Positions 48,594-53,770 of a stretch of DNA of 64,000 nucleotides are shown here, piece by piece (positions within the stretch are counted from its first letter, which is position 1; each line of letters opens with the position of its first letter). A model generated the notes under the pieces. That model was given only the letters and a program-made list of their open reading frames with translations, had not been told where the DNA came from and did not search any database. This DNA is from Planotetraspora silvatica (GTDB lineage: Bacteria > Actinomycetota > Actinomycetes > Streptosporangiales > Streptosporangiaceae). The translations under genes were made by a program, and so were the position numbers. The stretch is taken from positions 62,001 to 126,000 of the forward strand of contig NZ_BOOQ01000016.1 in assembly GCF_016863315.1 (NCBI RefSeq). Direction: 5' to 3'.

Positions 48594-51500
48594 TTGCGTC
48601 CTTTCATCGCCGAGCCAGGCCATGACGCCGATCTTCTGTGGGACACCCGCGCCGTCTTCCTGTCGGGCGGGGCCGCTCCCCGGCCGAGGACGTTGATCGA
48701 CATCCTCGACGGCACGGCACGGCGCCATCCGCACGCGCTCGCACTCGACGACGGCCACACCCGTCTCGACTACCTCGGCCTGCGCGCCGAAGTCGACCGG
48801 ATGGCGGACGAACTGCGTGCCGTGGGCATCGGCCCCGGCGACCGCGTCGGGGTCCGCCGCCCGTCCGGCACGGCCGGGCTCTACGTCGCGATCCTGGCCG
48901 TCCTGGCGGCCGGCGCCGCCTACGTCCCCGTCGACGCCGACGATCCGGACGAACGGGCCGAGCTCGTCTTCTCCGAGGCGGGCGTCTGCGCGGTCCTCGG
49001 GGAGGGGCTCGACGTCACGGGCGCTCCGCTGGGCCGTACAGGACCTCCCGGCCTGGACGACGACGCCTGGATGATCTTCACCTCCGGGTCCACGGGCAAG
49101 CCCAAGGGCGTCGCGGTCACCCACCGCAGCGCGGCGGCGTTCGTCGACGCGGAGGCACGGCTGTTCCTCTCCGACCGGCCCATCGGCCCGGGCGACCGGG
49201 TCCTCGCCGGCCTGTCCGTGGCGTTCGACGCGTCCTGCGAGGAGATGTGGCTGGCGTGGCGGCACGGCGGCTGCCTCGTGGCCGCCCCCCGCGCCCTCGT
49301 GCGGACCGGCATGGACCTCGGGCCCTGGCTGATCGACAGGGGCATCACGATCGTGTCCACGGTGCCGACGCTGGCGGCCCTGTGGCCCGTCGAGACGCTC
49401 GACCGCGTCCGCCTGCTGATCTTCGGTGGCGAGGCCTGCCCGCCCGAGCTGGCGGAGCGGCTCGCCGTGCCGGGGCGGGAGGTCTGGAACACCTATGGGC
49501 CCACCGAGGCCACCGTCGTCGCCTGCGCCGCCCGGATGTCGGGGGAGGGCCCGGTCCGGATCGGCCTCCCGCTCGACGGATGGGACCTGGCCGTCGTCGA
49601 CCGCAACGGTGAGCCGGTCTCCATGGGGGAGACCGGCGAGCTCGTCATCGGCGGCGTCGGGCTCGCCCGTTACCTCGACCCGGTCAAGGACGCGGAGAAG
49701 TACGCCCCGCTTCCGTCGCTCGGCTGGGAGCGGGCCTACCGCAGTGGCGACCTGGTGCGCGCCGAGGCCGAGGGCCTCATCTTCAACGGCCGGGCCGACG
49801 AGCAGATCAAACTGGGCGGCCGGCGCATCGAGCTCGGTGAGGTCGACGCCGCGCTGCAGGCGCTCCCGGGAGTCGCCGGGGCCGCGGCGGCGGTCCGCAC
49901 GGCCGGCGCGGGCAACCAGCTCCTGATCGGCTACCTGGTCCCCGGTGAGGGCTTCGACCAAGATCTGGCGACGAGCCTGCTGAGAGAGTCGCTGCCCGCC
50001 GCGCTCGTCCCCCGCCTCGCGACGGTGGACGCGCTGCCCACCCGGACCTCCGGCAAGATCGACCGGGACGCGCTTCCCTGGCCTCTCCCCACCACCACAC
50101 CGGGGGAGCGGGCGCCGGACGTCGAGCTCTCCGGCGCGGAGCTGTGGCTGGCGGAGCGCTGGGGCGACGTCCTCGGCGTCACCCCTGACCACCCCGGCTC
50201 GGACTTCTTCACCGAAGGCGGCACCAGCCTGGCCGCGGCGCGGCTGGTCTCCGCGCTGCGTGCCGAATACCCGGCCGCGGCCGTCGGCGACATCTACGAC
50301 CATCCGACGCTGGGCGGGCTGGCGGCCCGTCTGTCCGCGTCGGACACCGTGAAGATCGCCACCACCGACCGGGTCGTCACCCCGATGCCCCGGCGGGCGG
50401 CGGTCGCGCAGGCGGCGCTCATGCTGCCGCTCCTCACCATCGGCGCGCTGCGCTGGCTGACCGCGCTGGCCACGATCAACAACGTCGTCTCCCTGCCCTG
50501 GGCTCCCACCGTCTCGTGGGGATGGGTGCTGGCCGGGTGGCTGCTGTTCTTCTCACCCGCCGGGCGGATGGCCGTCGCCGCCGGGGGCGCCCGGCTGCTC
50601 CTGCGCGGAGTGGGGCCGGGCAGCTACCCGCGCGGTGGCCACGTGCACCTGCGGCTCTGGTTCGCCGAGCAACTCGCCGCACGTCTGGGCGTCCCCGGAC
50701 TGTCGGGCGCTCCGTGGGTCACCTACTACGCCAGGGCGCTCGGCGCGAGGATCGGCAAGGACGCCGACCTCCATTCCCTGCCTCCGATCACCGGGCTGCT
50801 CCGCCTCGGCGCGAACGCCGCCATCGAGCCCGAGGTCGATCTGAGCGGCTACTGGCACGACGGAGACCTCGTCCGCGTCGGTGAGATCCGCGTCGGCCCC
50901 GGCGCGACCGTCGGCTCGCGCTCGACCCTGCTTCCCGGCGTCAAGATCGGCAAGAACGCCCAGATCGCCCCGGGATCCGCGGTGATCGGCACGGTTCCGT
51001 CCGGAGAGCGCTGGGCGGGGGCTCCCGCCGTACGGCAGGGCAAGGCGCGCAAGCCCGAGGAGCGTCCCGCGCGCACGCGGCGCTGGGTGGCCGGCTATGG
51101 CGTGTCCGCCCTGGTCCTGAGCCTGCTCCCGGTGGCCGCCGCGGTCCCGGGCCTCGCCGTCCTCACCGCCTTCCTGCGGCACAGCACGTCGCCGCTGGCC
51201 TCCGCCATGTACGCCGTGCCGCTCGCGACGCTCGTCTCGATGGCCGCGTTCGCCCTGGCGATCTTCGTCTGCGTCCGGCTGCTCGCGGTCGGCCTGCGCG
51301 AGGGCAGCCATCCCGTGCACAGCCGCCAGGCCTGGCAGGCGTGGGCGAGCGGTCATCTGATGGCGATGGCCCGCGTCTGGCTGTTCCCGCTCTACGCCAG
51401 CGTCCTCACGCCGTCGTGGCTGCGCGCCCTCGGCATGAAGATCGGGCGTGACGTCGAGCTGTCGACCGTCCTGGCGTTGCCGTCGATGACCTCCATCGGC

Positions 51501-52460: not shown

Positions 52461-53770
52461 TGCTGGGAACCAAACGGAACGTGAGCGTGCACCACCCCTA
52501 CTTCCCCGAACACGGCGACGAGAGCTACCGGGTCGACCATTACGACCTCACGCTGGACTACCGCATGGCCTCCAACAGGCTCGGCGGGGTCGCCCGGCTC
52601 ACGGTGACGGCCGTGGAGCCGCTGGACCGGCTCACGCTGGATCTCGGCGTCTTCCGGGTCACGCAGGTCCTGATCGACGGGGAGCGCCTGCCGTACACCC
52701 ACCGCGACGGCAAGCTCCGGATCACGCCCGGCCGGTCGCTGCCGCCGGGCGAACCGGTCACCGTCGAGGTCCGCTACGCCGGAACCCCCCGCCCCGTGCG
52801 GAGTCACTGGGGCGGGCTCGGATGGGAGGAGCTGACCGACGGCGCCCTCGTGGCCAGTCAGCCGACCGGCGCGCCGTCGTGGTTCCCCTGCAACGACCGG
52901 CCGGGTGACAAGGCCACGTATCGGATCTCGGTGACCGCCGCCGCGGCGTACCAGGTCATCGCCAACGGCCATCTGGTGTCCAAGCGCCGGGCGGCTTCCG
53001 GCACGACCTGGGTGTACGAGCAGGACGAGCCGATGGCGACGTATCTGGTGGGCGTCCAGATCGGGCGTTACCAGCGGGCCGAGCTGCCGGGACCGGTCCC
53101 TCAGCATCTGGCCCACCCCGCCCGGCTGGCCGCCCAGGTGAGATACGACTTCGGCCGCCAGGCGCAGATGCTGGCCGTCTTCACGGAGCGGTTCGGGCCC
53201 TACCCGTTCCGCGAGTACACCGTCGTCGTCGTGGACGACGAACTGGAGATCCCGATCGAGGCGCACGGAATGTCGGTCTTCGGCGCCAACCACGTGGACG
53301 GCCGCCGCCGTTACGAACGGCTCGTCGCCCACGAACTGGCGCACCAGTGGTACGGCAACAGCCTCACGCTGGCCGACTGGCGCGACATCTGGCTGCACGA
53401 GGGGTTCGCCGCGTACGCGGAGTGGTTGTGGTCGGAGGACTCGGGCGGCGAGCACGCGCACGAGCACGCCCAACGATGGCACCGCAGGCTCGCGGCCATG
53501 CCCCAGGACCTGGTGCTCGCCGACCCCGGCCCGGACCGGATCTTCGACGACCGCGTCTACAAGCGCGGCGCCCTGGCCCTGCACGCCCTGCGGCGGACGC
53601 TCGGGGACGGCGCGTTCTTCCCGATGTTGCGCGACTGGACGGCCGGGCATCGGCACGGCGTGGTGAGCACCGACGCGTTCGCCGACCACGTCCAGCGCTA
53701 TGCGACCCGGCCCCTCGACACGTTCCTGTGGACCTGGCTGTACGACTCCCGGCTGCCCTTCCTGCCCTGA
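52460..53770 (+). CDS. M1-family metallopeptidase (probable polycation-degrading enzyme)
   Basis: 436 residues. The zinc motif is HELAHQWYGNSLTLADWRDIWLHEGFA (HExxH about 290-294, Glu about 313). It is short for aminopeptidase N (about 870 residues) and the usual GAMEN substrate motif is replaced near AHGMSVFGANH. No signal peptide is seen. Its ATG overlaps the synthetase stop (TGATG), so it is translationally coupled. M1-like peptidases that degrade epsilon-poly-lysine occur next to pls genes in other actinobacteria, which is the likely role here: self-protection or turnover. Confidence 0.85.
   Translation: MLGTKRNVSVHHPYFPEHGDESYRVDHYDLTLDYRMASNRLGGVARLTVTAVEPLDRLTLDLGVFRVTQVLIDGERLPYTHRDGKLRITPGRSLPPGEPVTVEVRYAGTPRPVRSHWGGLGWEELTDGALVASQPTGAPSWFPCNDRPGDKATYRISVTAAAAYQVIANGHLVSKRRAASGTTWVYEQDEPMATYLVGVQIGRYQRAELPGPVPQHLAHPARLAAQVRYDFGRQAQMLAVFTERFGPYPFREYTVVVVDDELEIPIEAHGMSVFGANHVDGRRRYERLVAHELAHQWYGNSLTLADWRDIWLHEGFAAYAEWLWSEDSGGEHAHEHAQRWHRRLAAMPQDLVLADPGPDRIFDDRVYKRGALALHALRRTLGDGAFFPMLRDWTAGHRHGVVSTDAFADHVQRYATRPLDTFLWTWLYDSRLPFLP

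Follow-up and report, generated by a model that had tools for sequence, protein, structure and literature searches.

The synthetase and peptidase genes

In the window, by which we mean the whole analysed stretch of 64,000 nucleotides from Planotetraspora silvatica, two genes lie one behind the other on the forward strand at 48594–52460 and 52460–53770, just where a first-pass annotation of the DNA had placed them. The first is a pls-like gene for a putative epsilon-poly-L-lysine synthetase of 1288 aa, assigned by the likeness of its adenylation (A) domain to 7WEW and by the NCBIfam model TIGR02353 (‘Pls/PosA family non-ribosomal peptide synthetase’), which it matches with 737.3 bits against a cut-off of 423.1. 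The NCBIfam model for the amino acid adenylation domain is matched just above its cut-off (322.3 and 317.4 bits, respectively). The open frame spans 48522 to 52460, and as start we favour TTG at 48594 over the longest frame from 48522, because a Shine-Dalgarno-like AAGGAG of presumed function (48581–48586, forward strand) stands 7 bases before it. A scan of the upstream region, which covers promoters of the sigma-70 type only, gave no match.

Four Pfam families were found on the synthetase at E ≤ 0.001, including AMP-binding, PP-binding and the hexapeptide repeat. Families for condensation or thioesterase domains are absent from this list, the layout being A-PCP-NRPS_term_dom without either domain. 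The peptidyl carrier domain (PF00550) at 50145–50333 carries the phosphopantetheine serine as residue 545, a column that holds Ser in all 116 lysine-code loci of the comparison described below and in the 19 others. The C-terminal half was modelled with AlphaFold2 (714 residues, 43 aligned sequences, mean pLDDT 87.3, pTM 0.87), and in the model a long helix pair followed by a beta-helix-like strand pattern occurs three times. The predicted membrane helix pairs lie at 50391–50600, 51078–51287 and 51819–51986. The predicted beta-helix units, whose boundaries are approximate and follow the strand pattern of the model, lie at 50742–51050 (C1, also marked by the hexapeptide match), 51426–51710 (C2) and 52137–52445 (C3). 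Hydropathy peaks coincide with the second and third helix pairs, and from the first pair only the first helix is also above the threshold; about five of the six helices are recovered by a plain hydropathy scan, which also has one false peak within the A domain. The prediction, six membrane helices with three beta-helix units in tandem, agrees with the model published for the C-terminal part (PMC10522769, section 13). In a Foldseek search against the PDB nearly all of the 50 matches listed are hexapeptide acyltransferases (for example serine and maltose O-acetyltransferase), each covering only part of the model with a TM-score over the model of 0.11–0.15. Condensation domains in the C-terminal half were ruled out by the Pfam list, the beta-helix model and these acyltransferase matches. 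The ‘C’ units of the A-PCP-TM-C-TM-C-TM-C layout proposed in the first-pass annotation are, according to the model, beta-helix units and not condensation domains.

The second gene (52460–53770, forward strand) encodes a pldII-like M1 zinc peptidase of 436 aa with matches to Peptidase_M1_N and Peptidase_M1 (PF17900 and PF01433). Its ATG at 52460 shares one base with the stop codon of the synthetase in the junction TGATG (52458–52462, forward strand), as the overlap had been described before, and its own stop lies at 53770. The zinc site HEXXH-x18-E is formed by HELAH from residue 291 and E314. A sequence search of the PDB matches nearly the whole peptidase best with two zinc metalloproteases, 6A8Z at 218.5 bits and 6IFF at 215.7 bits. 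No membrane segment was seen in the peptidase, the strongest 19-residue hydropathy window reaching only 1.06, although PMC9223678 reports PldII to be located outside the cell membrane. The peptidase of the window belongs to the M1 family with its zinc site and directly follows pls with an overlap, and by position and family we call it pldII-like. A simple gene caller gave a reverse-strand frame (52244–53890) in place of the M1 gene, which we accept over this frame because of its Pfam matches and which most likely escaped the caller because its longest frame extends into pls.

The unit looks bicistronic because on both sides the closest predicted gene is on the reverse strand, an epimerase-type gene at 47411–48250 and a gene at 53841–54236. 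The latter has no Pfam match and is kept in 4/4 loci of the same genus. Nine flanking genes were tested over the 135 loci, which extend about 6 kb to either side, and each recurs in 4 loci at most; the conserved unit therefore consists of two genes and a larger gene cluster was rejected. Further away the window contains a small riboflavin-type pair upstream, in which GTP cyclohydrolase II adjoins a RibD C-terminal-domain protein (45966–47338), a phosphocholine-specific phospholipase C (56139–58121; TIGR03396, 701 bits, cut-off 580) and, on the reverse strand, a FAD-linked oxidase similar to BagK/FevA1 of bagremycin and ferroverdin but below the cut-off (60097–61593; 490 versus 800 bits).

The adenylation domain and its monomer

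The A domain at 48678–50093 (forward strand), delimited as the stretch aligned with 7WEW, has this ‘Epsilon-poly-L-lysine synthase’ as its best match among solved structures with 702.7 bits, the next one reaching 337.6 bits; 8WWW (‘Carrier domain-containing protein’) scores 202 and 8G95 185.6 bits. By BLASTP it is 70.0% identical to 7WEW, which derives from Streptomyces albulus, over 480 residues. The ten pocket positions were placed via a motif alignment with the PheA code motifs and were read from one alignment. This gave DAESIGTVVK, the lysine substrate code of characterised Pls, which is identical in the window and in 7WEW and is the same code that the first-pass annotation had obtained by hand. 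The comparison with a characterised Pls called for there thus agrees in code and in identity, and it is a stronger test than the lysine code DAESIGSVCK quoted there. The A domain was also checked for the result named there as evidence against the assignment, namely a code that points to an amino acid which is not cationic, and no such code was found.

In PMC10522769 7WEW is named as the A domain of an epsilon-PL synthetase, and position 2 of the code is said to track the length of the substrate, with Ala for lysine, Met for ornithine and Phe in the PDAP/PDAB enzymes. Position 2 of the window code is Ala. A PosA-type enzyme for delta-poly-L-ornithine, which requires Met at this position (DMEHNGTVSK), and a poly-DAP or poly-DAB synthetase, which requires Phe, were therefore rejected as candidates. 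In a midpoint-rooted tree of A domains, in which 7WEW is the only characterised member, the lysine-code sequences group with the window and 7WEW in a single clade (support 0.993, 114 of 133 tips). Nineteen DFE-coded proteins from the family of the window fall outside of it in two weakly supported groups (0.744 and 0.54). Judged from code and sequence likeness the monomer is very probably L-lysine.

Conservation and distribution of the pair

Conservation was counted over 135 loci (L035–L169), with the short stretches L001–L034, all loci from L170 onward and the window itself left out. As 80 of these are the best 80 of at least 577 confirmed relatives, picked by likeness to the window protein, and the other 55 come from the family of the window, the set was not drawn at random. 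Three pairs of duplicates, family loci identical in the compared stretch to those of Sphaerisporangium perillae, Streptosporangium canum and Planobispora siamensis (all three Streptosporangiaceae according to the NCBI taxonomy), were merged to give 132 distinct loci, and the duplicates as well as L140 were dropped from the tree.

The code DAESIGTVVK is present in 116 of the 135 loci and codes of the DFE type in 19. The synthetase has an M1 gene no more than 400 bases away in 113/116 lysine-code loci before and in 110/113 after merging, compared to 0/19 loci with other codes. Among the best 80 of the at least 577 relatives an M1 match follows directly downstream in all 80, with gaps between −13 and 297 bases. 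For each gap we took whichever possible start codon stands closest to the pls stop, a rule that favours overlaps and by which an overlap is possible in 77 of the 110 distinct lysine-code pairs. Three lysine-code loci were not scored as adjacent: L140 ends 434 bases past the gene, in L141 the M1 match begins about 0.2 kb past the stop with no start codon found by the rule, and in L137 the M1 gene is 4.7 kb off. In L137 a copper-binding/Ig-like gene and two genes for multicopper oxidases occupy the intervening ~4.7 kb, so that the two partners are naturally uncoupled. With 737 bits for the synthetase and recurrence in 110/113 distinct relatives with lysine code, the pair is not a product of chance.

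The lysine-code pairs span many actinobacterial genera, and all four relatives of the same genus keep the pair, with best-segment identities of the synthetase of 99, 95, 93 and 89% (L128, L132, L129 and L133). At columns conserved to at least 97% the window has the majority residue at 417/417 positions of the synthetase (116 loci) and at 78/78 positions of the peptidase (115 loci), the residues of the zinc motif being among the latter. A neighbouring M1 gene is by itself no proof of lysine, because 8 of the 19 loci with other codes have an M1 homologue about 0.8 kb away (748–851 bases downstream, 37–38% identical to that of the window); also among the 19 is L158, which ends 221 bases past the gene and in which a missing M1 gene is not informative.

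Nine genomes of the family carry a synthetase with the non-lysine code DFEY[IL]GTVTK (L160, L162–L169), and the same nine out of 200 family genomes have a BPL_N-type gene (PF09825) like that of L162 at E ≤ 1e-40. In eight of them, going by coordinates, this gene directly follows the synthetase and is itself followed by the M1 peptidase mentioned above, while in L160 it stands beside the synthetase on the opposite strand and no M1 gene was found in the retrieved stretch. Synthetase, BPL_N-like protein and M1 peptidase are possibly a set with hydrolases for another polymer.

A TIGR02353 search at E ≤ 0.001 is lax, with 13 of 14 control genomes showing a match and one of them (Corynebacterium glutamicum) exceeding the cut-off, and for prevalence only matches over the cut-off were counted. 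Such matches occur in 5/5 genomes of the genus of the window (its own included), in 54/200 genomes of its family and in 172/295 genomes of a second genus, and of 296 genomes sampled across the phylum 14, again including that of the window, have a match to the A domain of 7WEW at E ≤ 1e-120. Full-length S. albulus Pls was not found in the second genus, the best identity to the 7WEW A domain being 72% among 34 loci that extend 1.5 kb past the domain (30 listed from the second genus, with its 172 family-bearing genomes, and 4 from the phylum sample). Seven of these 34 have no match to this A domain at E ≤ 1e-30 (L174, L177, L188, L190, L200, L201 and L203), and some TIGR02353 frames in the second genus are only 854–1106 aa long.

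Proposed function and its alternatives

Epsilon-poly-lysine is a natural preservative polymer in commercial use in food, and a Pls would be expected to make chains of about 25–35 lysine units. We consider it highly probable (about 0.93) that the two genes form an operon for making and degrading epsilon-poly-L-lysine. Its basis is the observed domains, the code, the key catalytic residues, the predicted fold and the conserved pairing; an epsilon-poly-lysine-type locus with coupled peptidase, as suggested by the first-pass annotation, is indeed the best reading in view of the code, the likeness to 7WEW and this pairing. Transcription as one operon, the chemistry of polymerisation, export and the function of the peptidase in the host would follow those of characterised relatives. 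The A domain would activate L-lysine as adenylate and load it onto the carrier serine, the membrane-bound domain with its three beta-helix units would link the lysines from alpha-carboxyl to epsilon-amino group, and the chain would be exported from the cell. The coupled M1 peptidase of the PldII type would then hydrolyse the polymer for self-protection and possibly for trimming or recycling.

The pairing of pls with a degrading peptidase, which had been invoked as known, is indeed in print in three publications. The S. albulus genes pls and pldII belong to one operon with a 4-nt overlap (PMC4361855), and PldII is translationally coupled to pls and degrades the polymer (PMC9223678; degradation also in PMC8117764). 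Inactivation of Pld and PldII left production and chain length unchanged according to PMC8506220, in disagreement with the longer chains upon repression given in PMC9223678. S. albulus Pls has the identical code, 70% identity over 480 aa and an adjacent pldII (PMC4361855), although it diverges by 30% in a comparison made on the A domain alone. Its PldII is encoded directly after pls with overlapping genes as well (PMC4361855), the likeness being one of gene position and the overlap 4 nt there but 1 base in the window. The pls–peptidase operon of Corynebacterium variabile has the same two-gene context (PMC8117764) but belongs to another actinobacterial lineage. Acinetobacter baumannii PosA (8G95–8G98, PMC10522769) shares the architecture, its model having three beta-helices and six membrane helices, but it has the ornithine code DMEHNGTVSK and its A domain is much less similar to that of the window (185.6 bits for 8G95 versus 702.7 for 7WEW).

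This architecture is common to synthetases for polymers of lysine, ornithine, diaminobutyrate, diaminopropionate and beta-lysine, as stated in PMC10522769, and non-lysine types, too, have some M1 homologues nearby, so a related cationic polymer of one of the other four has to be considered. We regard it as very improbable, as position 2 of the code is Ala and neither the Met of PosA nor the Phe of the PDAP/PDAB enzymes, the code DGESISVVNK of the beta-lysine synthetase differs from that of the window at positions 2, 6, 7 and 9 (all PMC10522769), and the 19 DFE-coded proteins of the family stand outside the lysine clade. Hardly to be expected is a silent or decayed locus that yields no polymer. 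The functional pls of C. variabile gave polymer only in S. coelicolor and neither in native culture nor in C. glutamicum (PMC8117764), and in view of this the window locus may be silent, possibly in one medium. For decay there is no support, since both frames are open, the window deviates at none of the strongly conserved columns (417 and 78) and the pair is kept in 4/4 relatives of the same genus.

Within the preferred reading, an operon for synthesis and breakdown of epsilon-poly-L-lysine, the peptidase might also be an obligatory partner, which sets the length of the polymer or recycles poly-lysine of the cell surface, and epsilon-poly-lysine would then be a widespread actinobacterial trait and not an occasional antibiotic. 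This would fit the near-fixed pairing (110/113 distinct lysine-code loci) over many genera, and we hold it to be rather unlikely. Actinobacteria commonly have pairs of this type, which have been well described, and the copy in the window is a further example and no surprise. The operon family gains a member from a relative of Streptosporangiaceae, which alone opens no new question. Variant synthetases for a preservative in commercial food use can be drawn from such loci, and the loci examined here give a simple rule for genome mining, namely that a directly adjacent M1 peptidase goes along with the lysine code.
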